From contig JABFGC010000001.1 in the NCBI GenBank assembly GCA_013112685.1, forward strand, positions 1 to 64,000: 64,000 nucleotides of DNA, written 5' to 3'. This document shows, piece after piece, positions 33,895-57,964 of this stretch. A model generated the notes under the pieces. That model had not been told where the DNA came from and made no database searches. It saw only the letters and a program-made list of their open reading frames with translations. The position numbers and the translations under genes were made by a program. Origin of the DNA: Chloroflexota bacterium. Lineage in GTDB: Bacteria > Chloroflexota > Anaerolineae > Anaerolineales > Villigracilaceae. Position 1 is the first letter of the stretch. Every line of letters begins with the position of its first letter.

Positions 33895-34119
33895 TTCGTA
33901 TCCTTTTTCGTTTTTTGCGCGATGATACGAAAGGCTGCCAGGGGGTATGAGGAACGTGTCGCCTCTGATTAATTCCCGGAATGGGGATTATTGATGTGTC
34001 CAATGGCATCCTATGGTTGCATTTCCCGGGTCCCACACACAAGTTCACCCGTAGGGAATAGGGGCGTTTTTACAGGTCGCATAATGATATGCAAGAGGAA
34101 TATCTGCCGCCTACGTACT

Positions 34120-34147
34120 TTGACAGTTTTCTCAAACTCCATATAAT
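34120..34147 (+). promoter_or_regulatory. Near-consensus sigma-70 promoter of the replication module
   Basis: TTGACA at 34120-34125 and TATAAT at 34142-34147 match both consensus hexamers exactly, with 16-bp spacing. It faces the plus-strand primase-ssb-dnaN gene set. The rest of 33895-34360 holds no convincing gene. Confidence 0.8.
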
Positions 34148-34187
34148 CCGCATTGTTCCTATTTTCCACAATCCATCCCTCTCTTCA

Positions 34188-34214
34188 AGAAGCCTGGCAA
34201 ACCGCCGGGCTTCT
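34188..34214 (+). promoter_or_regulatory. Stem-loop in the 5' leader
   Basis: AGAAGCC.GGC pairs with GCC.GGCTTCT around AAACC, about 35 bases after the predicted transcript start. No T-tract follows, so it is a structured leader element or weak attenuator and not a simple terminator. Confidence 0.45.
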
Positions 34215-34360
34215 GCTGTTGTATCCAATCCCCACCATCCATTCAACGAAAGGAGTCCAAGTTCACCATCCCCAAATCAATTCATCCGTATCATCCACTT
34301 TCCCATATACGAAACAGGCTTGTTTGGAAATTCGCATGAACCCACCGAAGGAAATCTCGA

Positions 34361-34495
34361 ATGTTTGGAAAATGGGAACCCATCGGAACAGGTTCAACCT
34401 TCCCCAACAAGCCCTACGTCAATACCGACACACTGCATGATTTTCATGGGTGTGTCGGTGAAAAATATTCCCTGGAGACCCTCATAGGAGGCTGA
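34361..34495 (+). CDS. Small protein, 44 aa
   Basis: ATG at 34361 with an AAGGAAA ribosome site opens MFGKWEPIGTGSTFPNKPYV... and ends ETLIGG. It is the first candidate gene after the promoter and is followed by a strong terminator at 34533. Composition is protein-like, but the evidence is short; function unknown. Confidence 0.4.
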   Translation: MFGKWEPIGTGSTFPNKPYVNTDTLHDFHGCVGEKYSLETLIGG

Positions 34496-34532
34496 TCGAA
34501 CCAAAACCAATACTGAATACTCCCCTCAACAC

Positions 34533-34574
34533 AAACGGGCGTTGTGCATGGACTTCCCATGCCAACGCCCGTTT
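34533..34574 (+). terminator. Strong hairpin with T-tract
   Basis: AAACGGGCGTT pairs with AACGCCCGTTTT, with a second inner stem (GCATGG / CCATGC). Transcription from the 34.1-kb promoter must pass this to reach the primase, so partial readthrough or attenuation is likely. Confidence 0.7.
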
Positions 34575-34692
34575 TCGTTTCTTACCGCACAAGCATGCGG
34601 CACAAGACAGCGAGGACTCGCCGGGGTGAGAGGCCCGGCAGATAAAAAGTGAAACCGCCCAGTTAGTGGCTGGACGGTTTCGGTATACAAAA

Positions 34693-34923
34693 ATGTACAA
34701 GCCTGATCATATCACAACCGTAAAAACCGTCAAGATTTACGCGCCTTTTCCGCTCCCAGCCAATGAACGTATGGTGATCGTAAACGGCAAGGCGATCAAT
34801 GTCGCCGCCTCCGCCGGACGACAGCAAGGGGACTACCTGTATACCGCCGATATTACACTGCTGCACGAAGATGCAGCCGTGTATACCACCGCGCCCAGTT
34901 GGGCGAGCGTGGAGGTGGAATGA
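34693..34923 (+). CDS. Hypothetical protein, 76 aa
   Basis: Start MYKPDHITTVKTVKIY at 34693, just after an inverted repeat (GAAACCG.CC / GG.CGGTTTC, 34651-34680). Short beta-like segments, no membrane span, acidic end (SVEVE). It precedes the 45-aa and primase genes. Function unknown. Confidence 0.5.
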   Translation: MYKPDHITTVKTVKIYAPFPLPANERMVIVNGKAINVAASAGRQQGDYLYTADITLLHEDAAVYTTAPSWASVEVE

Positions 34924-35004
34924 GCCGACACACTGGACTGCGCGGATGCGTGATCATGCCTTCTCCCTGGGACTATTTAATCCATTCAAACAAGGAGATA
35001 GATC

Positions 35005-35142
35005 ATGAGAACCTTCGCAATGCTTCTCATCCTGGTCGCCATCGCCGCCAGTCGCAGATCCCGCAGCGTTTTCCTGCGGGGCCAGCCTCATCACTGGCTC
35101 ACGGTCCTCATGGCTGCCATCGCACACTGTATCGGCAGATAA
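35005..35142 (+). CDS. Small hydrophobic protein, 45 aa
   Basis: ATG at 35005 has an excellent ribosome site (AAGGAGATAGATC). The product MRTFAMLLILVAIAAS then SRRSRS, and a second hydrophobic part (WLTVLMAAIAHCIG), looks like one or two short membrane segments with a basic loop. It ends 30 bases before the primase gene. Function unknown. Confidence 0.5.
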   Translation: MRTFAMLLILVAIAASRRSRSVFLRGQPHHWLTVLMAAIAHCIGR

Positions 35143-35172
35143 CCAGACGTAAAGGAGGTCGCAGAAAAGCAC

Positions 35173-36183
35173 ATGGAAAACATCCTGTCCGCCGCCGAAG
35201 AAATTTTGGGAACGGCGGTTCGAGTGGAGGATCATCGCAATTGGGCCATCTTCTGGTGTCCCTTCCATAACGACGCGAGTCGGGAGGGAACAGGCGGGCA
35301 ACCCAACTTCGGTGTCAATCTGCAGAGCGGATACTGGAAGTGTCTGCGCTGTGGCGCCAGTGGCGGTTCGTTGAAGTCATTACAAAAAAAGCTGGGTCAG
35401 GTCCCACAAGGGGATGCCAAATGGAAGCCAAGTGTATCGGCAACCACACCGACACGCCCCAAACGCCCGCCGACACAGGTGCAGTTGCTCGATGAAGCCG
35501 TGTCGGAAGCGCGTTCCATCGTCCAACGTTCGCCTGCCTGGGATTATCTGGCAGGGCGCGGCGTGACGCCCTATACCGCATTGGTCTACGGGCTAGGCTA
35601 TGGCATTCCTATTCCACGGGTTCATCGCGAGATCATTGAAGCCGCAAAACAATCGATGATGGTGCGCCGTGATGGGATCTGGTTGTGGGCCGGCGGTGTG
35701 GTGTATGCAGATCCGCCGACACAGCCAGCCGTGATGAACGTGCGCTATATCCCGGAGGAACAACTTCCCAAAGGCACACGCAACTTCACGCCGATCAAGA
35801 ATCACAAGACCTGGGGCAACCGTGTTCAACCTCTGGGAGGCTGGCGCATCACCAATAGCACACGCACGTTGATTGTGCTGGAAGGGCTGTTCGATATGCT
35901 TATCACCGCCCAAAAACTTCATCAGCTTGGACGCGAAACCGACACGGTTGCGGTCTACACCAACGGCGCCAGTCCCTCCGCCAAAATGCACCAGTGGTTC
36001 CGCGAACATCCGCAGTACGACTATCTTTTACTGCGTGACCCAGATAAAGCTGGTGTCGAATGGGCGCAAAGTGTATCGGCATCCATCCGACACGGCGGTG
36101 CGAAAGTACGCACCCTGCGACCTCCCGATCAACTGGACCCCGACGAAGCCATCCTAAGTGGATGGTGGCCGTCCATTCTGTAA
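35173..36183 (+). CDS. Plasmid/phage-type DNA primase (CHC2 zinc finger + Toprim)
   Basis: The 336-aa protein has an N-terminal zinc finger with Cys/His ligands FWCPFHND and WKCLRCGASGGSL (residues about 34-75), typical of DnaG-type CHC2 primases. The second half carries the Toprim-like LIVLEGLFDMLI near 235-246 and an acidic LLRDPDKAGVEWA near 288-300. It is shorter than chromosomal DnaG (about 600 aa), as in mobile-element primases, and lacks a helicase domain. Preceded by GGAGG and followed by an intrinsic terminator. Likely primes replication of the element. Confidence 0.82.
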   Translation: MENILSAAEEILGTAVRVEDHRNWAIFWCPFHNDASREGTGGQPNFGVNLQSGYWKCLRCGASGGSLKSLQKKLGQVPQGDAKWKPSVSATTPTRPKRPPTQVQLLDEAVSEARSIVQRSPAWDYLAGRGVTPYTALVYGLGYGIPIPRVHREIIEAAKQSMMVRRDGIWLWAGGVVYADPPTQPAVMNVRYIPEEQLPKGTRNFTPIKNHKTWGNRVQPLGGWRITNSTRTLIVLEGLFDMLITAQKLHQLGRETDTVAVYTNGASPSAKMHQWFREHPQYDYLLLRDPDKAGVEWAQSVSASIRHGGAKVRTLRPPDQLDPDEAILSGWWPSIL

Positions 36184-36206
36184 ATTCAAATGCAACCATT
36201 CCCTGA

Positions 36207-36240
36207 ATCGGGGAGCGATGAAACATCGCTCCCCGATTTT
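36207..36240 (+). terminator. Intrinsic terminator after primase gene
   Basis: ATCGGGGAGCGATG / CATCGCTCCCCGAT forms a near-perfect 14-bp stem followed by TTTT, 24 bases after the primase stop. Confidence 0.8.
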
Positions 36241-36263
36241 CATTTTCCTAAGGAGAAAACAAA

Positions 36264-36404
36264 ATGTCTGCTCTTACCATCTTCGCTTCCATCATCGCCA
36301 CCTTGATCCTGATCTGGGCGGTCTGGTTCGTTATCCGACTCATTCAATACATTGCCTCCGGCGAGTATGAGGTGGACCAGCGCCTGCACGACATCTGCAA
36401 GTAA
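36264..36404 (+). CDS. Small single-pass membrane protein, 46 aa
   Basis: ATG at 36264 follows AAGGAGAAAAC. Residues 4-30 (LTIFASIIATLILIWAVWFVIRLI) form a strong transmembrane helix, with a charged C-terminal tail (SGEYEVDQRLHDICK). It sits between the primase terminator and ssb. Function unknown. Confidence 0.6.
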   Translation: MSALTIFASIIATLILIWAVWFVIRLIQYIASGEYEVDQRLHDICK

Positions 36405-36438
36405 TTTCAAAAAACAAAATCAGAACAAGGAGACTCTC

Positions 36439-36849
36439 ATGTCAAAGCAATACAACAAATCAGTGTTCGTCGGTCACCTCGGCGGTGAACCGGAAATGCG
36501 TTACACCCCATCAGGCACAGCCGTGACAACCTTCAATGTCGCGACCAATGACCAGTACAACAATGAGAAGGGTGAGACCATCAAGATCACAACCTGGTTC
36601 CGTTGCACCGCCTGGGGCAAACTGGGCGAGGTCTGCAATCAGTACCTGAAAAAGGGCAGCAAGGTCCTGGTCGAAGGTCGTTTGACACCGGACAAAGCCA
36701 CGGGTCGTCCACGCATCTGGGTTCGTCAGGATGGCACAGCGGCTGCGGATTATGAACTCAAAGTCTTGGAGATTCATTTCCTGGACAACAAGAACAATGA
36801 GCCTGCTGTCGCGCAAGCAGATACCGCTGAGGATGACATTCCGTACTAG
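36439..36849 (+). CDS. ssb: Single-stranded DNA-binding protein
   Basis: The 136-aa protein starts at the ATG at 36439 behind AAGGAGACTCTC; a longer upstream reading is rejected. The OB-fold signature is clear: NKSVFVGHLGGEPEMRYTP, VTTFNVATND, WFRCTAWGKLGEVCNQYL and KGSKVLVEGRLTPD. It ends in an acidic tip EDDIPY, the conserved protein-interaction tail of bacterial SSB. Mobile-element SSB in a replication cluster with primase and DnaN. Confidence 0.93.
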   Translation: MSKQYNKSVFVGHLGGEPEMRYTPSGTAVTTFNVATNDQYNNEKGETIKITTWFRCTAWGKLGEVCNQYLKKGSKVLVEGRLTPDKATGRPRIWVRQDGTAAADYELKVLEIHFLDNKNNEPAVAQADTAEDDIPY

Positions 36850-36863
36850 CCCATCAAATCACA

Positions 36864-36897
36864 AGAGGCTGTCCTGTTGGGCAGCCTCTCGTTTTTT
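36864..36897 (+). terminator. Intrinsic terminator after ssb
   Basis: AGAGGCTGCC-type stem (AGAGGCTG / CAGCCTCT) with a short loop and a TTTTTT tail, 15 bases after the ssb stop. Confidence 0.8.
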
Positions 36898-36909
36898 GGA
36901 GATCACTGA

Positions 36910-37080
36910 ATGAACGCTGAACAACTTCGCTCACTTTCCCGCGTCCTCGATTATCTCGCGCAGGACGAAGGATCCCACTTTGAAAATGCTTCGCCTGACG
37001 AACGCACGAACCACATTTACCTGGATGTCCTGATCCTGCAGGACTATCTGGAACAGCAAAAAGGAGAACCCAACCCATGA
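36910..37080 (+). CDS. Small acidic protein, 56 aa
   Basis: MNAEQLRSLSRVLDYLAQDEGSH... ends EQQKGEPNP, with its TGA overlapping the dnaN ATG (ATGA). The product is predicted helical, acidic and soluble. Start supported by GGAG 9 bases upstream. It is translationally coupled to the sliding clamp; function unknown. Confidence 0.6.
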   Translation: MNAEQLRSLSRVLDYLAQDEGSHFENASPDERTNHIYLDVLILQDYLEQQKGEPNP

Positions 37081-38246
37081 TCACAATTCAACAAGATCTG
37101 CTTCACTCGGCATTGAATGCCGTCACCCGCGCCAGCACGAAGAGCACCCTGATGGCAGCCTTTTCCCTCGTTCGATTGGATGTGCATACGGACGGCATCC
37201 TACACCTCTCCTGCTTCAACGGTGAGACCGCCGCGCGTTCCACTGTGAATGTGGATTGCAGTGAAGAACTATCCATCTGTGTGGACGCCGCCACCCTGAA
37301 AGCCGTAGTGGAGACTCTGGCGGGGCAGATCCGCCTGCATGTGGATGGGACTTCCCTGGTCATTCAACAGGGAAACTCCAATCGCACCAGTCTGCGCATT
37401 GTGGATGAACCCCTGCCGGTGATCGGTGAGGAAAGTATTCAAACGGTTGCCACGTTTTCGGGAACCATCTTCCGCAGTCTGATGCGTGCGCTACCCTTCG
37501 CCTCCACAGATGACTCACGTGCCGTCCTGCAAGTCGTTCACCTGATCCTCAACTCCGACACAGTGATGGCCAAGACCGCCGATGGATATTCAGCGGGTCT
37601 TGTGCTGGAGAGCATCGAAGGTCCTACGGAACCAACCTCCGTATCTCTCCCTTTGAGCAGTGCGCGTCTGTTATCTACGTTGGTGGATGATCGCGACACG
37701 GTGTGCATGTGTACATCCGGTGAGAACCGTTACATTTTCCAGATCACCAACCCCAATGACTCCAAAGATCTGACTCTGGCAACTGTCACTGCAGACGGCA
37801 ACTTCCCGTCTGAGCAGATCAAGACCCTGATCGAGGATGCGCGAAAGAACGCTGTTGCCGTCCTTCAGATCCAGCAACCGAGCCTGATGCAATCCATTCG
37901 CATGGTCAATGCGATGGGGACCCAAAGCACTTTCATCAAGGCAATTAACGGCGTAGCCAAGATCGCGTCAGCGGAAACAGAGACCGGGCAAGGTCGCAAC
38001 ATTCTGGAAGGGACTGCCAGCGGTGAGGATGCCCAAGCCTGGTTGTCTGCCACCTTTTTGAAACGCGCGGTGGAAGCCTGCAAGGGTGAGCTGGTCATGC
38101 GTATCACGAATGGCACAAAGCCGATCCTGGTGGAAGCCGGCAGTTTCACGGCAGTCATCATGCCGATGATGGTGGAAGGTAGCAAAGATCCATTCCCCGA
38201 AGATGAAGCCATCGCCATCAGCCTGCCTGAAATGGCAATGGCATAA
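37077..38246 (+). CDS. dnaN: DNA polymerase III beta sliding clamp (DnaN-like)
   Basis: The 389-aa protein shows the three-domain clamp pattern: N-terminal LLHSALNAVTRASTKSTLMAAFSLVRLDV, middle TFSGTIFRSLMRALPFASTDDSRAVLQVVHLIL, and a C-terminal domain ending in EAGSFTAVIMPMMVEGS, where chromosomal clamps read 'VVMPM'. The family encircles DNA and tethers polymerase. Length is normal (about 370-390). Finding it beside ssb and a small primase, away from dnaA or recF, indicates an element-borne clamp. Divergent in the middle domain. Confidence 0.88.
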   Translation: MITIQQDLLHSALNAVTRASTKSTLMAAFSLVRLDVHTDGILHLSCFNGETAARSTVNVDCSEELSICVDAATLKAVVETLAGQIRLHVDGTSLVIQQGNSNRTSLRIVDEPLPVIGEESIQTVATFSGTIFRSLMRALPFASTDDSRAVLQVVHLILNSDTVMAKTADGYSAGLVLESIEGPTEPTSVSLPLSSARLLSTLVDDRDTVCMCTSGENRYIFQITNPNDSKDLTLATVTADGNFPSEQIKTLIEDARKNAVAVLQIQQPSLMQSIRMVNAMGTQSTFIKAINGVAKIASAETETGQGRNILEGTASGEDAQAWLSATFLKRAVEACKGELVMRITNGTKPILVEAGSFTAVIMPMMVEGSKDPFPEDEAIAISLPEMAMA

Positions 38247-38264
38247 CCGGAGAATCATTTCCAC

Positions 38265-38306
38265 ACAGACGGCATGGAGCCAATCGCTCCATGCCGTCTG
38301 TTATTT
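38265..38306 (+). terminator. Intrinsic terminator after dnaN
   Basis: ACAGACGGCATGGAGC pairs with GCTCCATGCCGTCTGT around a CAATC-type loop, followed by TATTT. A perfect 15-16-bp stem. Confidence 0.8.
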
Positions 38307-38318
38307 CCAAGGAGTCCC

Positions 38319-41300
38319 ATGAACGACAACAATTCCCTGCTGCTTCAACCTCCACCCACCTACGAGCAACCCATCCTCAAGACCATGCCTTTGCGTGAAC
38401 AGCCCGCCTACCGCATTACTCAAAATGCCAATGCCTGTAACATCACCGAACTCGTGGCGGCAGTGATCGGCGGGCAGAAACAGATCGAACTCTCGCAGGC
38501 GCTGCTGGCGCGTTTCGATGGCGATATCCGCCGTCTGTACCAGGCGCATCCCTCCGAACTCGCCAAAGTAAAAGGCATCCATCAGGCAACCGCCATCCGC
38601 ATCAAGGCGGCGCTCAATCTGGGGTTGCGTTTGAGTATGCCGGGTGATGAACGAACGGCAATCAACTCACCAGCCGATGCTGCTGCACTGGTGCAGGCTG
38701 AAATGTCGCTGCTCGAAAAGGAACATTTAAGAACGATCCTGCTGGACCGCCGCAACCGCGTGCTGGAGATCGTGGAGGTGTATCAGGGATCAGTTAATTC
38801 CTCCCAGGTGCGGGTGGGCGAGGTCTTTCAAGCCGCAATCAGCCGCCATGCCTCCGCCTTGATTTTGATTCATAACCATCCCTCGGGTGCGCCAAGAAGC
38901 ATGTAGGTAGAAAGTTCCAAGCGGAACCCTGCACGGAGTGTGCAGAGTGGCTAGAGGGACAGGGGCGAAGACCCGAAGCAGAATCGCTTCTGAAGCTCCC
39001 TCGACAATGTGGCAAGGGAAGCCCTACTCTTCCCGAGGCTGCTAGCCAGACTATCGCCACGGTTACGAAAAGAAATGGTTGTTTGAAGCGCCGCAGGTTG
39101 GAACACCCGCTTTACGTTAGGGCGAGGGTGTAGTCATCGGATTGTTCATCTCGCTAGGATGAACATAATCTCTGATGGATAGGAAGCCAGCACTCCAGAA
39201 TAATCTGGTCTTCCCCGATGACGAGCGAGGCAACGAGCCGAGCAAGGCGTACAGACCAAACCTACCGCGATAGGAAGACGCTATCTACATGAACTTGGGA
39301 ACCATGCGTAGTTCTCCCGCAAGGGAGTAGGTCAGCTTGCGACCACATGCCGCGCATGGGACGGAGCCTTCGTAGTAGTCAGAGGCAGGGAAAGCCTGCC
39401 ACATGGCGAAGGAAGGCAGTTGAATTTACATAGGCTAATGCAAACTAAGACGGAGAAAGGACGTATGAGCCAATCCAAGATGTCCCAAAAGCAAACAAGC
39501 CTGGCACTGGCAGCACAGGAAAATCCACAACACCGCTTCACTAATCTATACAGTCTCATGCATTGGGACTACTGGATTCAATGTGCAGCCGCAGCCGTTC
39601 TGGCGCGACCGGGCAGCTCAACGGCAGGTATCGATGGCACAACACGGGATACCTTCAAGAAGAACTATGAGCAGGAAATGGAGATGCTCATGGAGTCTCT
39701 CAAGAAGAAAACCTACCAGCCTCAACCTGTCCGAAGAGTGTACATCCCGAAGGCGAACGGGAAACAAAGACCGCTGGGGATACCGGTTCTCAGAGACCGC
39801 ATCGTGCAAGAAGCACTGAGAGCCATTCTCGACCCCATTTACGAAGCGGACTTCCAACCCTACTCCTTTGGATTTCGCAAAGGTCGTTGCACAATGGATG
39901 CCATTGCGGTCGTTATGTCACTGACGGGACCAACACAAAAGTATTACTACGCAATCGAGGGTGACATCAAGGGCTACTTCGATACGGTACATCATCGCAA
40001 GCTGCTCTCCATCCTCAAACAGCGCATCGCAGATAAAGACATCCTAGACCTAATCTGGAAGTTCCTCAAGGCTGGCGTCATGGAAGACGGACTCTTTGCA
40101 CGCACGGAAACGGGCGTACCGCAGGGAGGTGTCATCTCTCCACTGCTCGCCAATGTCTATTTGAACGAGTTCGACAAGTGGGCAGAGGCAAAGTGGAATC
40201 TGTCTCCCTATGAGAAAGCCAAAAGACGACAAGCTGGAAAAGGCAATTACCGTCTCGTCCGCTACGCGGACGATTTTGTTGTGATGAGCAATGACGGCAT
40301 CGCCGAAGTACAGCAAGCCAAAGAGGAAATCCGAGAGTATCTCAAGACCCAACTCCACCTCGAACTGTCCGAAGAAAAGACGCTGCTTACCCATGTCAAC
40401 GACGGGTTCAACTTTCTGGGATTTCACATTCAGAGAGCCAACCCCGAAGGACGCTGGGTGGTGCATCTGAGACCGGCAGAAAAGAGCAAGGAGCGAGTCA
40501 AGAAGAAACTCAAAGACCTGACTTCCAGAGGCTGGACATGGATGGACGAATACAGCAGGCTGACCACCCTGAATGCAATTGTGAAGGGTTGGGCAGAGTA
40601 TTACAAGTACACCAGCCTGCTCGCTGACATCGAAGACATCACCCGCCATACATGGTTCAGATACCTCGGCTGGCTCCTGAAGAAACACAAAGGCAGCCGG
40701 AAACATAATCTGATTACAACCAAGACCAAAGTCATTCACAACAGAACGCGCTGGACAGCCAGTATACGTGAAGGGGAGAAAATCCTCGAAGCGTACCAGT
40801 GGCTACCCTCCCCAAAGGAATTGCAGAGACGACGCTACTACCAAAAGGGAAAGGATGGGTTTCCTCATCCCTACCTGATGGAAGAAGAGTCAACTTTGCT
40901 GGATTATCCAATGGGAGAAACCGGGCCAGAGGAAGCCATTTACTTGGCGACCATCGGGGCAAGCAGCAATCGCGCCTCACGCAACGAGCCGCTTGAACTT
41001 GCGGAACTCAAATTGCGGGCAAAGATGCGGGATGACTTCAAGTGTGTACGCTGTGGCTCTTCCGAGAGTTTGCGCGTGCATCACAAGAAGGGTACGAAAT
41101 CCCACAGCCTCGATAACCTCGAAACTCTGTGCCTGAAATGCCACAAGGCTGAACACGGCTACCGCCAGACAGCAAATTAATTCAATGGAAAGCCGGATGA
41201 GGCGAAAGTCTCAAGTCCGGTTTGGAGAGAGGGGTGGGGAAAACCACACGGAGCAATCTGTGAATGGCGTCCCTGCCCCTACTCTACGTGACCCCACGCC

Positions 41301-47201: not shown

Positions 47202-47236
47202 ATCCCCCATGCCATTCGGTGTGGGGGATTTTATTT
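47202..47236 (+). terminator. Intrinsic terminator
   Basis: ATCCCCCAT pairs with ATGGGGG-type GTGGGGGAT around a GCCATTCG loop and is followed by TTTATTTT, about 20 bases after the preceding stop. Confidence 0.75.
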
Positions 47237-47253
47237 TCAAAAGGAGATTTGAT

Positions 47254-50200
47254 ATGCGTCCTCCCGCAATAGAAAAGTGCGGTTTCTATGAAACATCCCA
47301 AACCGTTGCTCAACTACTCACAAAATATTTCAAGCCTGCCGAGTCCGGCAGGCTGCTCGATCCTTGTGCCGGTGAAGGTACAGCAGCTTCCATTCTGGCA
47401 AAAGCATTTAACTGCCAGAGTTGGGGCGCGGAACTTTCCCCAGCCCTTGCCGCACTCGCTGCTGAAAAAATGGACCGCCTGTTCAATACACCCTGGAGTT
47501 CCTGCCATCTGACGAGTGAGTCCATCACGCTGTTGTTCCTCAATCCGCCCTATAGCCATGATCGTCTGGGTGACCAGAAACGCCTGGAATTGGAGTTTCT
47601 GAAATCCACCACACCCAAACTGATTCGCGGTGGGGTCTTAATCTACATCGTCCCGCATCCGTTGCTTCGTGATCTGGATGTGGCTTCCCACCTGGCTGGG
47701 TATTACGAGAACATCCGCATATACCGTTACCCTGACACCGGATTCAATCAGGTCATTGTGTTGGCGACCAAGCGGGTGAAATACAAGATCCCATCTCATG
47801 AGGAAGTCCATCAGGTGCAGGCTTGGGCAGATGTCGAACCGCCCATGTTGGTGGAAGTGGATGAACCGTTGTATGAACTACTTCCTGCAATTGACAAAGG
47901 ATCAGGTGGACAACCCATCCGCTTCTCCCGCCTGGATTGGCAGCCGGAAGAGATCGTGGATGCCACTCAGAAACGCGGATTGCATTCTTCAAAGGAATGG
48001 TTGGACCTGCTCAATCTTTCGCGCGGCTTGGGTGAATTGAAGCAACCGGTCATGCCGCTCAAGAAGGGACACATTGCGATGCTGATGGCATCCGGGATGA
48101 TGGGAACGTTGCGGTTGACCGATGAAGATGGCAAGCCAATGTTGGTAAAGGGACGGGTGGTGAAGGTTACAGAGAAGGTCGAAGAAAACACAGATAAGAA
48201 AGGACATGTGACCTCTGAAATCTTCCGCGACCGTTTCGTTTCCACAGTTGCCATCCTGCGCCAAAGCGGGATCGAGATCATTGATACCGTTGATCCGCTT
48301 TCCAAGTTCATGCATAAGTATGGGGATCAGATTGGCGCGCATATCCTGTCCGCGTACCGGCCTTTGTACAACTTCGATCCAACATCGGAAGAAACTGCTG
48401 TATTGGATACCCTTGGAACGAAGCGCAAGCCGTTGCCCGGACAGGAGAAGGCAGGGCTGTTGCCGGCACAACGGCATGCGGCAACAGCAATCGCTCGATC
48501 AATACGCAAGAATGGTGTGGGGAATATTCAAGGCGAAATGGGACTAGGAAAGACTCTTCTTGGCACAGCAACTCTCGAATTACTCAATGCCTACCCAGCC
48601 ATCGTGCTCTGCCCGCCGCATCTTGTTCCAAAGTGGATTCGGGAAATCGAAGAAACAATTCCTGGCTCGAAGGCGATGGAAATCACCCGCATCGGTCGTA
48701 ACGCAAATGATCCCGGCGATGTGAATGATGTACGCAGGTTCCTGCAACTTTACAAGAATGGAGAGCTTGGCAAAAAGCCCGTTGCCGTGATTGCCCATAC
48801 CTCTGCGAAATATGGCGCGGGCTGGGAGCATGCTGTGATACGCAAGAAGTTTGTGGATGATGAAGATGGACGGGTATTTGAAGCTCTCTGCTGCCCGACT
48901 TGTGGTTCACCGATACAGATCGATCTACCGGGTGGCTTCGTCAAGGTTTCAACCACGTTTGATGACTTAGGCGATAAACGACGTTTTTGCGAGGCGGAAA
49001 TTTCGGGCTATGAACTGGATGATCATAAACGTCTAGTGCGCGATGAGCATGGCAACCCTGTATGGGGTAAGCGAAAATGTGGAACGCCGCTCTTCCAATT
49101 CACAGGTCACCGTTGGGCAATTGCCGATTACATCGCCAAACATGCCAAGGGTGAATTCAAGTTATTGATCGCCGATGAACTGCACCAGTTCGCTGCGAAA
49201 GCCAGTGACCGGGGGGTTGCCTTCCATCAACTTGTTGAAGCCACAAAATATGCATTGACCCTGACTGGTACCTTCTTTGGAGGAAAGAGTACTTCCATCT
49301 TCTGGTTGCTCCATCGCTTGAACGCCGGCGTTCGCAAGGATTTTGCCTTCAATGATGAAAAACGCTGGGCGCGGTTATATGGTGTGTTGGAGATGACCCG
49401 CAAAAGCAAACGCGCCGAAGAAGATGTGGATGAAGATGGTTTTACAGGCAATCGACGGTATCAAAATCAGGCAAAGGAAAAGCCTGGCATTTCGCCTGCC
49501 ATTGTAAACCGCCTGTTGGACACCACGATATTTCTCTCCCTGAAGGATCTTGGGCTGGCGATGCCACATTATGCCGAGGAGGTAGTGACGTTGGAGATGA
49601 CCGACGAACAGAGCAGCCAATATCGTGTGATGGCAAAGAAATTGTATGACCTTGCCATCAAGAACAGGCGCTATCTCTCGACCTGGCTGCAGTGGACTCT
49701 GGCGCGCCCAAACTCTGCCTTCCGCGATGAGGTGGTTGAAGTGGATGAGGTCAATCAGAAAGGAGAAGTTGTACGCAGGAAACAATTGATGGAACTGCCG
49801 GCAGTCGTAAGCCATGAATCCATGCCCAAGGAGTCCTGGCTGGTGGATTTCTGTCGTACTGAACGTCAGCAAGGGCGTAAGGTGTTGATCTACCTGCGCC
49901 AGACAGGAACACGCGATATTCAGGATCGCATTTTGAAAGTCCTACGAGAAGGCGGGGTGCGTGCGGAAGTATTAACCAGTGGTGTCAACCCACGCAAACG
50001 AGAGGAATGGATTGCCAAGCGCGTGGTTGGTCTGGATGCGCTGGTGGTCAATCCACGATTGGTGGAGACGGGTCTCGACTTGATCGCCTTCTCATCAGTA
50101 GTCTTTGGAGAGATCGAGTATTCACTCTATACGTTATGGCAGGCTGTGCGCAGGGTGTGGCGGCTTGGACAAACCAAACCGGTGAAGGCAATCTTCTCGG

Positions 50201-50574
50201 TCTACGGCGAAGCGATGGAGGCAAGAGCACTGGCATTGATGGGCCAGAAAATGAAGGCAGCGCAACTCCTTTATGGGGACGAGGTCGGGGGCGCTATCGT
50301 TCCGGAAGAAGACGGCGACATCCTCATGAAGTTGGCACGTGAAGCCTTGGAGTCGGCTGATCTTCCAGATCTGCAATCGCTGTTTGCCGATGAAGTAGTG
50401 GTTTCCAATTCGCCAATGGGTTGCCCGACAGTTCCAAGTGCGCCGTTACCCGTTCCAGAAATACCTAAGACGGTTTCCTGGTCTGACTGGATGACCAACA
50501 AAGGTGTGGTGGGGAGGGCGGCAAGTCGAGTGCGTTCCAGGCAGGTGACACAAAATCAAGTGTCCCTTTTCTAA
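47254..50574 (+). CDS. DNA adenine methyltransferase fused to SNF2/DEAD-like helicase, 1,106 aa
   Basis: ATG at 47254 follows AAGGAGATTTG. The N-terminal domain has the SAM motif LLDPCAGEGTAASILAKAF (about 30-48) and the catalytic LLFLNPPYSHD (about 90-100), in the order of gamma/alpha-type N6-adenine methyltransferases. After a linker comes a helicase: Walker A QGEMGLGKTLLGTATL near 428, a Cys4 insertion (LCCPTCGSPI ... KRKCGTPL), a DExH-like LLIADELHQF near 635, and the C-terminal motif LVETGLDLIAFSSVVF with WQAVRRVWRLGQTKPV. The layout recalls phage P1 DarB, which protects incoming DNA from restriction. That function is inference. Confidence 0.85.
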   Translation: MRPPAIEKCGFYETSQTVAQLLTKYFKPAESGRLLDPCAGEGTAASILAKAFNCQSWGAELSPALAALAAEKMDRLFNTPWSSCHLTSESITLLFLNPPYSHDRLGDQKRLELEFLKSTTPKLIRGGVLIYIVPHPLLRDLDVASHLAGYYENIRIYRYPDTGFNQVIVLATKRVKYKIPSHEEVHQVQAWADVEPPMLVEVDEPLYELLPAIDKGSGGQPIRFSRLDWQPEEIVDATQKRGLHSSKEWLDLLNLSRGLGELKQPVMPLKKGHIAMLMASGMMGTLRLTDEDGKPMLVKGRVVKVTEKVEENTDKKGHVTSEIFRDRFVSTVAILRQSGIEIIDTVDPLSKFMHKYGDQIGAHILSAYRPLYNFDPTSEETAVLDTLGTKRKPLPGQEKAGLLPAQRHAATAIARSIRKNGVGNIQGEMGLGKTLLGTATLELLNAYPAIVLCPPHLVPKWIREIEETIPGSKAMEITRIGRNANDPGDVNDVRRFLQLYKNGELGKKPVAVIAHTSAKYGAGWEHAVIRKKFVDDEDGRVFEALCCPTCGSPIQIDLPGGFVKVSTTFDDLGDKRRFCEAEISGYELDDHKRLVRDEHGNPVWGKRKCGTPLFQFTGHRWAIADYIAKHAKGEFKLLIADELHQFAAKASDRGVAFHQLVEATKYALTLTGTFFGGKSTSIFWLLHRLNAGVRKDFAFNDEKRWARLYGVLEMTRKSKRAEEDVDEDGFTGNRRYQNQAKEKPGISPAIVNRLLDTTIFLSLKDLGLAMPHYAEEVVTLEMTDEQSSQYRVMAKKLYDLAIKNRRYLSTWLQWTLARPNSAFRDEVVEVDEVNQKGEVVRRKQLMELPAVVSHESMPKESWLVDFCRTERQQGRKVLIYLRQTGTRDIQDRILKVLREGGVRAEVLTSGVNPRKREEWIAKRVVGLDALVVNPRLVETGLDLIAFSSVVFGEIEYSLYTLWQAVRRVWRLGQTKPVKAIFSVYGEAMEARALALMGQKMKAAQLLYGDEVGGAIVPEEDGDILMKLAREALESADLPDLQSLFADEVVVSNSPMGCPTVPSAPLPVPEIPKTVSWSDWMTNKGVVGRAASRVRSRQVTQNQVSLF

Positions 50575-51370: not shown

Positions 51371-53791
51371 CTAGGAAATCACATTTTTCCGAGTCCACTC
51401 TTCATAGAGTTGAGCAGCCAGTGGGATATGAGATTTCATATATAAATAATCCTCACATTTTTTTGAAACAGACTCGCGTCCCCAATTTGCGTTACGTTGA
51501 TCACTTAGATGTGCCCCACACCACTTGATAGCTGCCGTTTGCGCGGTTTCATTCTGAATTTGACTTAGGGCACACATCGCAAGATAATCAATCGGAGTTC
51601 CCTGTTCAGAGGGGAAAGCTTCATATTTTTCTGTTTCATCGCTTTCAAGTTTTTTTATTAGCGACTGGACGGCAGCTGATGAACCGATGCTGCCAAGAGC
51701 GGAGACAGCTTTAGAAACGATAAAAACATTGTCAGAATAGAGCTTGCCAATCAACACAGGTACTGCTTCTGTCGATTTGATTGCACCCAACGCCTGGATC
51801 ACTGCCATTTGTATTTCGTCATTTGCATTTGTCAGCAACGCGATAAACATATCATTTGCTTCGCTACACTGGATTTCCGCTAACGCGTTTATCATCACGA
51901 TCTTGAAATGCTTGTTAGACGAGTTGGTAAATGCATCCAATAGAGACTTTTTCGTAGAACTGTTCTCTCTATGCTGCCTCAGTAAGGAATAAAATCTGAA
52001 AGGTGCATCGCCCCAGTTTGGTGTGCGCAGTGGTTTGGCGTTTTGATGCGAGAATTTGCGCACGCCATAACGAAATAGATTTATCAGTACAGGAACGATA
52101 GCTGGACCTGCAATCTGTGCATGCGACCAGAGTGTTTTACCGTCATCATGATCATGCTGAAAAAGCAGGGTGTCTCGCCACAGGGCATTGATCGTAGGTT
52201 CGCGGAATTGGAAAGCTGCTACCATCATGGCTATCAGCCTAATATCCCGATCGTTAACTTTCAAGAGGGACATCAATATGGGCAAGGCACGTTGATCTCC
52301 AATTTCACCAAGTGCCAATATGATATAGCGTTTCGAAGTTTGTGCGGTATCTAATTTCTTGATTAGAAGCTCGACCGCATTAGTGCCAAATTCCGCAATA
52401 ATCTTTACCAGATCGAGATTCACATTTTCAACATAGTTCTTTTCAATTGTTTCAAGTATCTCATCTATGCAAGATGGATCATCGCGGAGTTCGCGAAGGA
52501 GTTTGGCAGAATCCGCACTGCGTTCCTCACCTCCAGAATGGACATCCAGCATATTGGCGATAAGCCGGTTGTATGTGGCGAACCTGATCTCCTCCGATAT
52601 ATTGTCAATACCGCTTACGATGCATTGTGCTGCAAGGTATGGATCAACAAGAATCAATTTCTCAATATAAACAGACGGGTTTGGAATTAGACCACACAAG
52701 GTTGTGGAGATGGAATCCTTGCCGGGGTCCAGCCGATTCCAGTAGCTGGAGTGCCAACCAGTTTTTGATCCTTCGATGATCGTATCCACCGGATATCTCG
52801 AATTGTTCAATGCTGCAAAATAGTCAGACCAGACACCTGGTGTGAAACGGAATGCCTTGCCGTCACGCTTGATAATGTGTGCTTGTTCTGCTAGCCGCAG
52901 GACAGACTCTGCCCGGTTTCGGCGAATTTTCAGGAGCTTTTCAATCCTGTTGGATATCCAGTAAGGTGTGCTTATAATGTAATAAAGAATAGTAATTGGC
53001 AGGAGAACGAACCAGCGCAAGAAACTTGGAACTCTTTGTGCGCGATCAGATACATCAGCAAGTCGCGAGTAAAGCTTTAATTGAGACTTTCCCCACCAAC
53101 CCAACGGTTTACCCCACATGGTTTTTGTTCCCAAGATATCCAGCATTTCGGAGTAAGCAGCTTCCTCGCCATGTATTTCGCGATAAAAGGATTGAGCGGG
53201 ATATTCCTTTGACGGGTAATGGCTGCTCGCAAGCTGGGCAAATGCGAATTGGATCTGTTGCAAGTCAATCCAATTCTTATTTCCTAGTTTCTCCTGTGTC
53301 CACTGCACATTGATCAGTTTCTCTAATAGAGTTCCAATATTGCGAGGCAGTTGATCATTAGATTTCTCAAACACCTCGATAAGACCGTCGAACGAGAAGG
53401 GATCAGATACCAATTCGTTAAGCGAACTGGCATTTCTTCGATTAGAATGAATCTGTTCCCAGAATCGCAAACAACGTTCGTTTCCCAGCATCTCCCTCGC
53501 AAATTCATTCGCTTGTTCGCTTTCCAGACGAACGAGCGATTTGCGCATTTCCTTTCTCGCTAACTCTTTTTGACTTGGGCCTGGAGGATCAGGAAATAGC
53601 AGTTCGCTGACATATTTTCCTGCATCCAGGGCACCTCGAAGTGCAGTGAATAGACCAAGCACATAAAGAAAAATCGCCAAAATATGATTTGAGCCTTCGG
53701 GTAGGAATGCTATGTAATACCGATTAATACCCCAGATGATGAAGGTGGTAACAACAATGAGCAGGAGGATGTTGCGAAGCCGCTTTGACAT
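51371..53791 (-). CDS. Membrane-anchored HEAT-repeat protein, 806 aa
   Basis: ATG at 53791 (MSKRLRNILLL) with AGGA upstream is preferred; a longer start at 53845 overlaps the nuclease gene. Two transmembrane helices lie at residues about 7-25 and 34-52, and a third hydrophobic stretch at about 257-275 (FLRWFVLLPITILYYIIS). From about 430 to 780 are HEAT/PBS-lyase-like helical repeats, for example LDTAQTSKRYIILALGEIGD and VSKAVSALGSIGSSAAVQ. No ATP-binding motif is seen, although proteins with this repeat tail often carry an NTPase. Last gene of the AAA-DUF6414-nuclease operon; could be a membrane sensor or effector. Inference only. Confidence 0.8.
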   Translation of the reverse strand: MSKRLRNILLLIVVTTFIIWGINRYYIAFLPEGSNHILAIFLYVLGLFTALRGALDAGKYVSELLFPDPPGPSQKELARKEMRKSLVRLESEQANEFAREMLGNERCLRFWEQIHSNRRNASSLNELVSDPFSFDGLIEVFEKSNDQLPRNIGTLLEKLINVQWTQEKLGNKNWIDLQQIQFAFAQLASSHYPSKEYPAQSFYREIHGEEAAYSEMLDILGTKTMWGKPLGWWGKSQLKLYSRLADVSDRAQRVPSFLRWFVLLPITILYYIISTPYWISNRIEKLLKIRRNRAESVLRLAEQAHIIKRDGKAFRFTPGVWSDYFAALNNSRYPVDTIIEGSKTGWHSSYWNRLDPGKDSISTTLCGLIPNPSVYIEKLILVDPYLAAQCIVSGIDNISEEIRFATYNRLIANMLDVHSGGEERSADSAKLLRELRDDPSCIDEILETIEKNYVENVNLDLVKIIAEFGTNAVELLIKKLDTAQTSKRYIILALGEIGDQRALPILMSLLKVNDRDIRLIAMMVAAFQFREPTINALWRDTLLFQHDHDDGKTLWSHAQIAGPAIVPVLINLFRYGVRKFSHQNAKPLRTPNWGDAPFRFYSLLRQHRENSSTKKSLLDAFTNSSNKHFKIVMINALAEIQCSEANDMFIALLTNANDEIQMAVIQALGAIKSTEAVPVLIGKLYSDNVFIVSKAVSALGSIGSSAAVQSLIKKLESDETEKYEAFPSEQGTPIDYLAMCALSQIQNETAQTAAIKWCGAHLSDQRNANWGRESVSKKCEDYLYMKSHIPLAAQLYEEWTRKNVIS

Positions 53792-53801
53792 GGTCAATTT
53801 C

Positions 53802-55262
53802 CTATCTGACTTTTGATGCAGATATCTTGTTTTCCTTACTGGCATCTATAAGTATTATGTTGGGGGCACTTTTGATTCGTAGTTTTCTCAAAATATCGTA
53901 GACTTTACTTTTCTCTTTTTCGTTGAAATAGAGAATGACCTTTATAGCATTCTTCGTATTATTTGCTCTTTTATAAATCTCTACCTGGTTTTTGAGATTA
54001 GCCTCAAGTTTGGTATTCCTTGCAAGTTTAAATTCCACGACAGTCGTATCTTTGCTGCCTTTAGAAACTTTATAGTCAACAGGTCCGCGTCCGTTATTTA
54101 CTTCGCGATTTACATCCAAATCAGTGGCGAACCAGGTCAATCTGTATAAGATTTGCAGATCGTTTTCGTTCTCAATCGGTTTGCCTTCGTGATACAAATA
54201 TTTGTAACCATCCTTGTTCTCAATCACATCTTTCAGGAATTTGACTCTTTGCAGTGACTCTTCGTAGGTTCTGCCCTTACTATTGTAAAAACCTGACTTT
54301 TTCAGCAGGTCTTCAGAAAGCGCTTGTATTTGCTGGATGTATTGAAACTCTGCTTCCTTCACTTTATAAGTGCTACTAGTATTTGCGCTGTCTCCGTTTT
54401 GCTCTTTATATCGAATATAGTAATCTAATAGCTGAGGAAAGTTGTTAACAGTCTGAAGTTTTGCCTTATTGATATCTTTTTTTGTTGGATCTTCTGGGAG
54501 CAAGGACTTGAAATAATTATCGATTTGTGCTCGGAGCTGGGCATTAGGGATAGCTTCTGGTATATCCTCAAAGTCGTCAAATAGATCCTCCTTGTTTATC
54601 CACAGATCATGACGGGTTAATAGATTCTTAGGTGTCAGAATCACATAATCATTATTTATGTAGGGCAGGGTGAATGTTCTTCGCTCCCATGATTCTGTGT
54701 TGTAATTGAAGACTACTTTGTTGACTGCAATCCTTTTTTTATACTTTCGTGGAAGGTATTTAACTGCAAACTCTTGTGTATATTGCAGGAGAAAGTTCTT
54801 AATAAGGTTCGTGGTGAAGTCACTAATTTTGTCGCGCCCAACTCCTCCCTTGATGAGACATAATTTTTCAAGATGACTTCCCTTGGTGATCTTCTCGTTT
54901 CCAAAACCTGAAAATATCTTGTTTAGGTTGGCGTGTAATGAATAAGCAAAGTCATCTCTTAACCCGGCCCCCTTATTACCCGAAACTGAAAAACCGAGCC
55001 AATTTTGCTTTACTTCAGGGAAAAAATACCATGCTTGCAACAATCCGTCATCCAAGTTGATGTCTGTTGATTTGTCACGTAGAAATCTCACATACTTAAT
55101 GATCTGATTATGAAGCTCTTTATACTTAGGCTTTCGACTGTGAAAAAGCAGGAAGGGATCTATGAACAGGGGTAAATCATTAATAAGCGATATGTTGAAA
55201 GCACCATATTTTTCCAGCACTTTAGGCGAAATTTCGAAATAATCAGAAAAATAGATTTTCAT
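53802..55262 (-). CDS. PD-(D/E)XK-type nuclease, 486 aa
   Basis: The N-terminal 390 residues form an uncharacterised domain (SDYFEISPKVLEKYGAFNIS, LPLFIDPFLLFHS). The C-terminus carries a nuclease signature: GPVDYKV (Asp 396), VVEFKLA (Glu 410, Lys 412), and QVEIY (Gln 426, Tyr 430), which equals the D...ExK...QxxxY set of RecB-like PD-(D/E)XK enzymes. It therefore probably cuts DNA or RNA. It lies between the DUF6414-like gene (87-base gap) and the HEAT gene (10-base gap). AT-rich coding sequence, low GC relative to the replication module, fits transfer. Target specificity unknown. Confidence 0.8.
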   Translation of the reverse strand: MKIYFSDYFEISPKVLEKYGAFNISLINDLPLFIDPFLLFHSRKPKYKELHNQIIKYVRFLRDKSTDINLDDGLLQAWYFFPEVKQNWLGFSVSGNKGAGLRDDFAYSLHANLNKIFSGFGNEKITKGSHLEKLCLIKGGVGRDKISDFTTNLIKNFLLQYTQEFAVKYLPRKYKKRIAVNKVVFNYNTESWERRTFTLPYINNDYVILTPKNLLTRHDLWINKEDLFDDFEDIPEAIPNAQLRAQIDNYFKSLLPEDPTKKDINKAKLQTVNNFPQLLDYYIRYKEQNGDSANTSSTYKVKEAEFQYIQQIQALSEDLLKKSGFYNSKGRTYEESLQRVKFLKDVIENKDGYKYLYHEGKPIENENDLQILYRLTWFATDLDVNREVNNGRGPVDYKVSKGSKDTTVVEFKLARNTKLEANLKNQVEIYKRANNTKNAIKVILYFNEKEKSKVYDILRKLRIKSAPNIILIDASKENKISASKVR

Positions 55263-55349
55263 TTCATTCCCTGCTGCAATTTCCTGTGTTTCATGAAGTA
55301 TATGATAGACCTGTTCTCTGCATCTAGTATTCTCTGAGGTATGCGTGCC

Positions 55350-56738
55350 TTACCAATAGATTGCCACGAACTCAGAATCGATGAAACGATCCAGGGAAGT
55401 TGTATCAGCCGCGGCACTTTGGGTAGACGGAAACGGCGTACTATTGCCAGTTATATCGATCCCGGCATCTGCTAGTGCAGCCTGTCGAAATTTCGCAAAT
55501 AGAAGTGAATCCTGGTTAAAGTGAAAATTGCTGGCTAGATACGCAGAGATGGCTTTGAATGCTTGAAGTCTTACTTCCTGATTGCCGAATGAACTAGAAT
55601 GCTGATCTGCCAGCAGCCTGATTTCATCCTTGTGCTTTGTCGTGAGTTTAATTTGAAAGTGTTCGGCTATTAAGTCAGCATATTTGACCAATGCATTATG
55701 CATCAGTTGCTGTTTTGATCTAGCCGCCGGTTCTGTCTGATTCGAAGCATTGGTAGTAGCAAGCGCAAATATTCCTGCTATATCGACCTGCTTCGAAAAC
55801 CCGGGAATGACAGACTCAAGGATATGTGCCAACTTAACTGGAGTCCAAGTAGTCTGTAGCCCAGTCTGACCCATCCTGCAAAGAATACGGTAACGTGCAT
55901 TAGAAAATAGAATCCGCCTAATATCTTTCCAGAAAAGGGCTTGCTCTGCGACTCCCACCACGAAAACCGGGTGGGTAAGAGGCTGATCTTGAGAGGGTAA
56001 ATCCCGTAGGAGGAGGCGGTTTATGATCCACTCCTTATCATCAAGTTCTATTACACAATAATCAACAACCTTGCCGCGAATTGGGACAAGTCCAGCCAGA
56101 AGTTTCTCCAGAATACGACCGACAGATTTCATTTGAACGAGCTCGCCAGCCACATCTAATCCGAACAGGTCAGCATTTTCTTCCAGGATTTCCAAAATGG
56201 TAGAAGTAAAAGTACTTGCACGGAATATAGGATCTGCATCCAACTCGACTTCCAACTCAAACAATTTTCCCCGTGAAAGGTTTAATGGATCAATCACCCA
56301 ATAGCCGTCGGCAGATGTTTGGACAGTCGCAAGTAACTCATCCATATTATGGATCTTCGGATGCTCAAGATCTCCTGGTATAGGTCGGATACTAAGCGAC
56401 TCTAGTTCACTTTCATACAGTTGCTTAAATGTCGCTTGGACAATGGATTTCCGAACTACTTGAGTTCCACTGGTCTGATTATTCATGATCCGCGAATTCA
56501 ATTCAGCCTTTGCAACTCCAACCCCTGCGCCCACCGAACTCCCAACCTCGCTTTGCCATGAAGAAGTATCAGTATCTGTAAATTGTTCTGCAATAGGACC
56601 GAGTGTGGAAGCAACTAGACTATAAACACTTACCTCATCGAGGTAGACAAATTCCCTCAGGCTGCCCTTTTCAATATTGAGCTTATCCTTCTTTCTCCAT
56701 TGACGAATCCGAGCCGGAATGCGCTTAAGGAAGTTCAT
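55350..56738 (-). CDS. DUF6414-like protein, 462 aa
   Basis: The start overlaps the AAA+ stop (ATGA). The signature near residue 30, REFVYLDEVSVYSLVAST, then QFTDTDTSSWQSEVGSS and GVGVAKAELNSRI, agrees with the DUF6414 family as I recall it. A Gly/Ala-rich segment follows, then beta-rich domains (KVVDYCVIELDDKEWIINR) and a helical C-terminus. No catalytic motif visible. Its tight coupling to the AAA+ gene suggests it is a partner or substrate adaptor of that ATPase. Family function is not established. Confidence 0.75.
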   Translation of the reverse strand: MNFLKRIPARIRQWRKKDKLNIEKGSLREFVYLDEVSVYSLVASTLGPIAEQFTDTDTSSWQSEVGSSVGAGVGVAKAELNSRIMNNQTSGTQVVRKSIVQATFKQLYESELESLSIRPIPGDLEHPKIHNMDELLATVQTSADGYWVIDPLNLSRGKLFELEVELDADPIFRASTFTSTILEILEENADLFGLDVAGELVQMKSVGRILEKLLAGLVPIRGKVVDYCVIELDDKEWIINRLLLRDLPSQDQPLTHPVFVVGVAEQALFWKDIRRILFSNARYRILCRMGQTGLQTTWTPVKLAHILESVIPGFSKQVDIAGIFALATTNASNQTEPAARSKQQLMHNALVKYADLIAEHFQIKLTTKHKDEIRLLADQHSSSFGNQEVRLQAFKAISAYLASNFHFNQDSLLFAKFRQAALADAGIDITGNSTPFPSTQSAAADTTSLDRFIDSEFVAIYW

Positions 56739-57964
56739 TTTGAATTGCCTTTCGTTGAAAGTTTAGCGGTTCGGCGCCTTTGTGCTGCTACTAACTCGAA
56801 GCCTCCAATGTAGTCCTCAGGCAGAATGATAGACCTGTCGTCCGCTGCAGCCAACAAGCCCGCCTCGGTCCATATCGCGGCTAAATCTGCTGCCGACCAC
56901 CCTTCGGTTTTCTGTGCTACCCATGCGTGTGGAAGATTATCTGAAATATTGAATCGTTTGGTCGCAACCTGAAGAATCAACTCGCGATCAAGACGATTTG
57001 GAAGCGGAAAATTGATCTCCCAATCAAACCTGCCTGGACGACGTAAAGCGACATCAATATCTTGCGGTCTGTTGGATGTTGCAATCACAACAATGTTGTT
57101 TTTTGTAAATCCATCCATAAGGGTTAGAAGCTGGGCGACCACGCGACGTGAAGCCTCATGCGATTCGTCAGCACGCTGACCAGCAACACTGTCAATTTCA
57201 TCGAAAAAGATAATTGCCTGTTCCTGTTGTTCTGCATCTTCAAATATCTTGCGGAGTAGCTCCTCGCTTTGTCCATACCACTTGCTGAATATCTCAGGAC
57301 CACTAATTTCATAAAATGCTGACTGCGTGCTGTTCGCAATAATTCTTGCTAACATCGTTTTCCCAGTGCCGGGTTGCCCAGTAAACAGAACGCCTTTAAT
57401 TGGGCGCGTTCCAATAGTTGTCAGGGCAGCCTTATGCTTAAGTGGTACTTCTATAAGCTTCCGTGCCCGTTCAACTACATCATGGAGTCCACCAAAATCA
57501 TCGAACGTGACTTTGATTGCTTCCTTTTCCAGCCTGAATTTTGAAACAACCGCGTCGTCGATAGCAGGTAACTCAATATACTTAATGGGCTCTTTTGACA
57601 GAACACGCATGACGCCAGTTGAGATCATCGCCTCAACAGTGTTCCCTTCACTACAAACTGTTTGGCTTGTGGGAATCTTAATCCACCGACCGCCGGCATC
57701 AACAATAGTGATGTCTGGTAATCTCAAACGAACAACGCCAACAAATGACTGATCTGGCCAAAGACTATCTGGAGCAGAGTCAATAAAGTTCGTGTTGATG
57801 CCGACAAAAACAATGGACCCAACTGCATACTCAAATGGTTCTTCATTAACCACAGTAGTAAAAGTTCCGTTTGGAAATTCCAGATACAGGCGACATCCAC
57901 TGTCATCTATTGCACGAATCTTCGCTATATTGCTTACTGGGTTGGCTTGCTCGAAATTACTCAT
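56735..57964 (-). CDS. AAA+ ATPase (Cdc48/proteasome-ATPase-like), 409 aa
   Basis: Walker A GQPGTGKT (196-203), Walker B IIFFDEID (251-258), sensor AIATSNRP-type VVIATSN (about 292-298) and arginine finger RRPGRFD (about 308-314) define a single classical AAA domain. The N-terminal 150 residues include a small beta-barrel-like region (FPNGTFTTVVNEEPFEYAVGS) as in Cdc48/Rpt N-domains. The pore-like segment KWYGQSEELL is present. It would remodel or thread a protein. First gene of the putative four-gene system. Confidence 0.85.
   Translation of the reverse strand: MSNFEQANPVSNIAKIRAIDDSGCRLYLEFPNGTFTTVVNEEPFEYAVGSIVFVGINTNFIDSAPDSLWPDQSFVGVVRLRLPDITIVDAGGRWIKIPTSQTVCSEGNTVEAMISTGVMRVLSKEPIKYIELPAIDDAVVSKFRLEKEAIKVTFDDFGGLHDVVERARKLIEVPLKHKAALTTIGTRPIKGVLFTGQPGTGKTMLARIIANSTQSAFYEISGPEIFSKWYGQSEELLRKIFEDAEQQEQAIIFFDEIDSVAGQRADESHEASRRVVAQLLTLMDGFTKNNIVVIATSNRPQDIDVALRRPGRFDWEINFPLPNRLDRELILQVATKRFNISDNLPHAWVAQKTEGWSAADLAAIWTEAGLLAAADDRSIILPEDYIGGFELVAAQRRRTAKLSTKGNSK

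Follow-up and report, generated by a model that had tools for sequence, protein, structure and literature searches.

A conserved and apparently mobile AAA+/DUF6414 gene pair with a likely role in defence

Gene content of the locus

The window analysed here is a stretch of 64,000 nucleotides from a Chloroflexota bacterium (contig JABFGC010000001.1), and the element in question is a gene pair which encodes an AAA+ ATPase followed by a long-form DUF6414 protein. These two genes form a conserved unit that is found in bacteria and in haloarchaea, and the cassette is undescribed. In the window they open a group of four co-oriented open reading frames (ORFs) on the minus strand, at positions 51371-57964. 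The initial annotation described this group as having a four-base overlap in the first pair and small gaps afterwards, and the arrangement is confirmed. The AAA+ gene (56735-57964, 409 residues) overlaps the DUF6414 gene (55350-56738, 462 residues) by four bases. The gene of a predicted PD-(D/E)XK-type nuclease (53802-55262, 486 residues) follows after 87 bases and that of a predicted membrane/HEAT-repeat protein (51371-53845, likely start 53791) after another 10 bases, provided that the latter starts at Met19. The nuclease gene is a neighbour outside the conserved unit, and the HEAT gene is a near-orphan neighbour.

Directly 5' of the AAA+ gene, at a distance of 115 bases from the Res gene, lies a type III restriction-modification (RM) pair, which matches REase_III at 7e-174 and MTase_III at 1e-189. 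A Vsr gene (4e-19) is found further upstream, beyond this pair, and the window edge holds the last part of a cytosine-methylase-like ORF, recognised by eye. The same-strand order is therefore the cytosine-methylase-like end, Vsr, small ORFs, the type III pair, AAA+, DUF6414, nuclease and HEAT, so the four genes are the end of a same-strand run of defence-like genes. The defence-like setting noted in the initial annotation holds.

The AAA+ ATPase

The first protein was correctly called as AAA+, with a match to the Pfam AAA model PF00004 at 8e-44, and its residues 132-397 match the PAN-type model PRK03992 at 5e-70, which is below that model's own cut-off. In an alignment of 53 proteins, the Walker A motif GQPGTGKT (residues 196-203, 57356-57379, minus strand) has G196, G199, T200, G201, K202 and T203 conserved at 98% or more, Walker B D255/E256 and the arginines R309/R312 are conserved, and the pore loop K228-W229-x-G231 is conserved at 100, 92 and 94% in its three defined positions. 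These motifs appear to be those expected of a threading motor.

The N-terminal domain (residues 1-145, 57530-57964, minus strand) shows by eye two similar beta-rich halves and is predicted to be a tandem OB-like domain. Its profile matches six PDB sequences at E<=10, which are four PAN, one ARC/Mpa and one OB-named design, and these matches are weak (E 0.071-0.72) yet mutually consistent. A penultimate tyrosine, as in a C-terminal hydrophobic-tyrosine-X (HbYX) motif, is found in none of 60 paired AAA+ ORFs, a few of which are fragments. The protein is predicted to form a ring with tandem OB domains and to resemble the proteasomal ATPases PAN and ARC, without the HbYX end.

The DUF6414 partner

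The second protein, which had been called DUF6414-like, is DUF6414 proper, matching PF19952 at 1e-46 and with 160.5 bits against a curated cut-off of 25. No PADLOC 2023 model matches it, a fold search for it returned no match, and the name DUF6414 was not found in the literature searched. The AlphaFold model has a mean pLDDT of 75 and a pTM of 0.58.

The paired form differs from solo DUF6414 proteins by about 100-130 residues added before the last strand, as seen in an alignment of six solo and nine paired proteins. The six solo sequences (271-364 residues) are the readable ORFs of eight loci (the other two, L079 and L083, were left out, as were the fragments L082 and L086-L089), and they have the same core and the N-terminal Y-[LF]-[DN] motif without the added segment. 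In the window protein this segment comprises residues ~320-446 (55401-55781, minus strand), and from the alignment and the model it is predicted to be a helical domain, with helices at 321-330, 336-360, 367-379, 387-405 and 411-425.

The C-terminus of DUF6414 is nearly always A-[IMLV]-Y-W, and is AIYW in the window (residues 459-462, 55353-55364, minus strand). The exact ending YW is found in 118 of 120 DUF6414 proteins (one ending ATYW), which are the best 120 of 603 and were chosen by whole-protein similarity, not by the motif. It is also present in all nine plasmid records opened and in 56 of 60 genome loci (L060 and L065, which run off their contigs, are left out), a figure which is partly selected because the C-terminal motif itself is one of three locus-retrieval patterns. 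The four loci without it are L024, L063, L069 and L071. The four haloarchaeal plasmid proteins end in YW despite 20-25% identity to the window protein. In the model the C-terminus lies within a confident beta-strand, and solo proteins have a similar last strand, which in several of them continues past the tyrosine, so that this end may have a structural role, may serve as a docking key, or may do both.

Within a sample of 400 genomes of the phylum, four of 16 DUF6414 regions (L092-L095) are the long form with AAA+, while the other 12, from 11 genomes, have neither an AAA+ nor a paired-form match. Loci L077-L085 are short solo DUF6414 genes in Chloroflexota with no AAA+ match alongside, and one of them, L078, is flanked, as judged by eye, by the genes of an ABC-type ATPase and of a carboxyltransferase-like protein. 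Haloferax volcanii is the sole one of 14 control genomes that matches PF19952.

Conservation and mobility of the pair

The initial annotation proposed a neighbourhood survey of homologs of all four genes, and for the first two of them co-occurrence is nearly complete. Among 62 DUF6414 loci from genome contigs, with flanks of up to 10 kb (less near contig ends), 60 have an AAA+ gene immediately upstream in the same orientation. The two exceptions are L070, in which the match begins 54 bases from the contig start, and L069, in which the gene is in fragments; the paired AAA+ of L049 is split into two separated pieces. On plasmids, 23 records have DUF6414, and the pair is together in all nine that were opened, four of them haloarchaeal, from Rubrobacter, Streptomyces, Novosphingobium, Tsukamurella, Corynebacterium, Halorientalis, Haloarcula, Salinigranum and Halobacterium. 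The distance matrices of AAA+ and DUF6414 (53 rows including the window) are correlated with r = 0.874, and the maximum of 1000 permutations is 0.178.

The limits of the unit are given by a Microbacterium and an Agromyces locus (L058 and L061), which share 96% identity over 2,864 bp (8615-11478) of their 21-kb loci. The shared stretch is composed of the pair and about 130 bases on each side, and the 21 kb have no further nucleotide match and no other matching ORF of at least 150 residues. This natural case is the strongest indication that the two genes suffice as a unit. Twelve locus pairs were compared in all, and 11 have a single aligned block of 2.1-3.2 kb; full 10-kb flanks were available in both loci only for L058/L061, L050/L052 and L054/L055. 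L050 and L052 have a longer common stretch, which includes a type I RM system.

A tree of the concatenated pair places the window's genes with two Rubrobacter pairs and an Acidobacterium (98/97), apart from the Chloroflexota pairs, a pattern that is by itself no proof of transfer. The AAA+-linked long form is sporadic, being present in five of the 400 sampled phylum genomes. The cassette is apparently mobile.

The nuclease and HEAT neighbours

The nuclease has no above-chance family in the Pfam copy used, and its relatives carry PF28130 and PF28123 in the protein database. The motif recognised in the initial annotation is fully conserved, and none of D396, E410, K412, Q426 and Y430 varies across 42 aligned proteins, of which the window's is one; the predicted core D396...E410-x-K412 is encoded at 54027-54077 on the minus strand. 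Residues 5-232 match the PADLOC candidate PDC-M36A at 5e-22. The protein is predicted to be of the PD-(D/E)XK type, and its very large family is likely stand-alone. Within reach of the 62 DUF6414 loci, the nuclease is found only once, in L058, on the opposite strand and convergent, and anywhere in the genome it is found in two of 50 pair-carrying genomes, one of them weak (E 2e-11). Ten of the 11 nuclease loci outside the window's species are without the pair, and the 23 DUF6414 and 19 nuclease plasmid records have no accession in common. At L061 11374-11478 (minus strand), a remnant of the nuclease C-terminal codons forms the downstream edge of the stretch shared with L058, where the gene is full-length. 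Nuclease and pair have met at least twice (in the window and in L058/L061), which fits a shared island and not an obligate partnership. Viral contigs L158 and L159 carry the nuclease beside common neighbours, one of which resembles a terminase, so the nuclease can be prophage cargo.

The HEAT protein matches Pfam HEAT_2 at 2e-21. It has 824 residues from the first ATG and 806 from Met19 (53791), which is the length of its single close homologue, P0241. As in the initial annotation, the likely product is therefore an 806-residue HEAT protein. It has two hydrophobic segments near the N-terminus (~22-45 and 51-74), a less marked third at 274-297, and no Walker A pattern. Its gene is near none of the 62 DUF6414 loci, and the protein is almost an orphan. 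Its 'FRFTPGVWSDYFAA' segment is reminiscent of NACHT/STAND proteins, and its two distant relatives bear a NACHT accession, so it could be a NACHT-HEAT protein without the NTPase.

In the phylum sample, DUF6414 is found in 16 of 400 genomes, the nuclease in seven and the HEAT protein, counted at E<=1e-20, in two. DUF6414 and the nuclease are together only in the window's genome (G000) and in G005, which has the same four-gene order; its genes are 100% identical to those of the window and so are no independent case. By the refuting criterion of the initial annotation, absence of co-occurrence elsewhere, the four-gene interpretation therefore fails, and the roles once proposed for these two genes, the nuclease as effector and the HEAT protein as membrane anchor, find no support. 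A system is likely present and comprises two genes rather than four.

Defence setting of the pair

The neighbours of the pair were compared with controls by their matches to PADLOC. The nearest neighbours, two per side, comprise 212 ORFs. Of the 187 usable ones, 145 were taken further and 137 of these were scanned, a number chosen to match the controls. The 137 control proteins are from contig starts or mid-chromosome stretches of 40 of the same genomes, 37 of which yielded proteins. Counted by family name and not by protein, 13 different PADLOC names are found in the 137 pair neighbours (in the 25 of 29 families listed, one member each) and three in the 137 controls. The former include GajB of Gabija, an effector endonuclease (CBASS), type II, IIG and IV RM, AbiEi and PycTIR, and the control matches are a cyclase, a JAB and two mad3 proteins. 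Among neighbours examined singly, L044 and L050 have a type I RM next to the pair, and L012 has a SIR2-type PDC-S65 protein there. The commonest neighbour family, present in seven of 60 loci, resembles a tyrosine integrase (by eye), and Phage_integrase matches three of the 137 neighbour proteins. These neighbours suggest mobile defence islands, and a defence role of the pair is inferred from them.

A type I RM operon and a YgjP-like metallopeptidase lie upstream of the pair in L044, L050 and L052 (RM checked in L044 and L050), and PF01863 (YgjP-like) is found in two neighbour proteins.

Other features of the window

On the opposite strand, 47209-50574 encodes a 1121-residue protein in which a DUF6094 methyltransferase is fused to an SNF2/DEAD-like helicase, and the gene of a small DUF6011 protein comes after it. 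Positions 28563-38906 encode SSB, a DnaG-like primase, a DNA polymerase III beta-like protein, RadC, a ParA-like ATPase and a T2SSE ATPase, and this region resembles a plasmid or conjugative element that has integrated. A group II intron reverse transcriptase with maturase and HNH domains is present at 39420-41180, and an RHS-repeat protein of 2271 residues with Ig-like domains at 16799-23614.

Proposed function and alternatives

We give about an even chance to a cassette that protects its host against phages or plasmids. In this mechanism the ATPase ring would grip and unfold a target protein, and DUF6414 would dock on the ring through either the added helical domain or the conserved C-terminal end, and it would select the target or release a harmful response. 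On this view the same island would carry the nuclease and HEAT genes as independent cargo that is not obligate. Unfolding, docking and which of the partners is the effector are steps that we infer. A bolder version, which we consider speculative and improbable, is a free-standing "split" proteasome-type unfoldase used for immunity in two domains of life, in which the ATPase forms a tandem-OB ring and the HbYX-like C-terminal key is on DUF6414, a separate subunit with a new fold, and not on the ATPase. The key would plug into the ring, and a viral or plasmid protein would switch the docked and silent DUF6414 to an effector, without a protease or nuclease.

Several observations weigh against a defence function. 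The enrichment of PADLOC names is rough: assumed counts of 11-13 against 2-4, by family name, give Fisher p 0.01-0.03, PDC-M36A among the 13 names is most likely the L058 nuclease itself, and mad3, also among them, is the commonest control match. Three of ten neighbours examined singly are without a PADLOC match, and several pair neighbours are ordinary metabolic genes. Phage records and viral contigs have no DUF6414 match. The OB match of the AAA+ N-domain is weak (best E 0.07), the role of DUF6414 is a guess because no fold was matched, and its core can act without the ATPase, as solo genes exist. More sharing between loci may also be hidden in the comparisons in which contig ends are near the pair.

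Another reading, possible if somewhat unlikely, is that the pair does not defend but serves plasmids or integrative elements in maintenance, transfer or stress, and is found beside defence genes because mobile DNA carries both. Its occurrence on plasmids, the integrase-like family as most recurrent neighbour, the sporadic distribution in the phylum and the SSB, DnaG-like, polymerase-beta-like, RadC and ParA-like genes of the window are in agreement with this; yet, integrase aside, no replication, partition or transfer family is prominent in the top 14 neighbour clusters, and the names beside the pair are those of RM, Gabija, a CBASS effector and TIR. DUF6414 could also be a toxin that is held or released by AAA+, in a toxin-antitoxin-like or abortive unit. 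We regard this as unlikely: the strict pairing with the ATPase first, the overlapping genes, the co-variation, and a DUF6414 frame that is broken in L063 and L069 and ends early in L024 would fit such a unit, but no toxin fold or catalytic motif is recognised in DUF6414 and solo genes are found without an ATPase.

The HbYX-like end of nearly all 120 DUF6414 proteins and the PAN/ARC-like OB domain of AAA+ would allow a proteasome activator, in which the C-terminal Hb-Y-W docks a PAN-like ring on the 20S proteasome, and a 20S alpha match is present in 17 of 50 host genomes. The other 33, some of them incomplete bins, have no such match, the window's genome (78% complete) has no proteasome-family (PF00227) match, and the same is true of proteasome matches in all four other phylum genomes with the pair, of which G005 is 99% complete. 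The C-terminus lies, moreover, in a confidently modelled strand that is similar in solo forms, several of which extend past the tyrosine. The 20S-less hosts refute proteasome docking as a general function, and although it could survive for a subset of hosts, we hold it very improbable. Just as doubtful is the four-gene machine of the initial annotation, in which AAA+ and DUF6414 would be sensors or remodellers, cutting would fall to the nuclease and the HEAT protein would hold the complex at the membrane. Co-orientation with short gaps, a nuclease found next to the pair in another lineage as well (convergent in L058, a remnant in L061) and the same four-gene order in G005 speak for it, but the nuclease near one and the HEAT gene near none of 62 DUF6414 loci, plasmid records without a common accession, nuclease loci that mostly are without the pair and the identity of the G005 copies have already largely refuted it.

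The four-part guess is replaced by a bounded two-gene unit that is directly clonable, and whose start and stop are marked by the 96%-identical stretch in two genera. If the defence function is true, this would be an AAA+ pair, common to bacteria and haloarchaea, in which the fold of the partner is unrecognised, and it would help to explore how unfoldases of the proteasome-like kind can function when no protease is involved.

Comparison with known systems

No named system fits the locus, as the initial annotation also concluded. PAN and ARC/Mpa are similar to the window ATPase in the AAA core (132-397) and, weakly, in the profile matches of the predicted OB-like N-domain, and differ from it by the absence here of an HbYX end on the ATPase and of a 20S proteasome found in the host, and by the DUF6414 partner. 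Solo DUF6414 proteins share the core domain, the N-terminal motif and a similar final strand with the paired form, but lack the helical segment and have no AAA+ match alongside. The likeness to PDC-M36A concerns the nuclease only, in its N-terminal half (residues 5-232). McrBC combines an AAA+ motor with a PD-(D/E)XK nuclease, and here too an AAA+ motor is near a PD-(D/E)XK-type nuclease, but this nuclease is no conserved partner of the motor.

IetAS is a defence pair of an AAA+ ATPase and a subtilase, and the likeness is in the two-gene layout with an ATPase. The window AAA core, and only this core, matches PADLOC IetA at 2e-32, and NCBIfam IteA_antiphage matches at 2e-27 with 96.7 bits against a cut-off of 510. 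In the window, the Pfam matches of the three proteins encoded downstream and of the RM pair upstream include no subtilase or other peptidase family, and the partner of the ATPase is DUF6414 instead of a subtilase.

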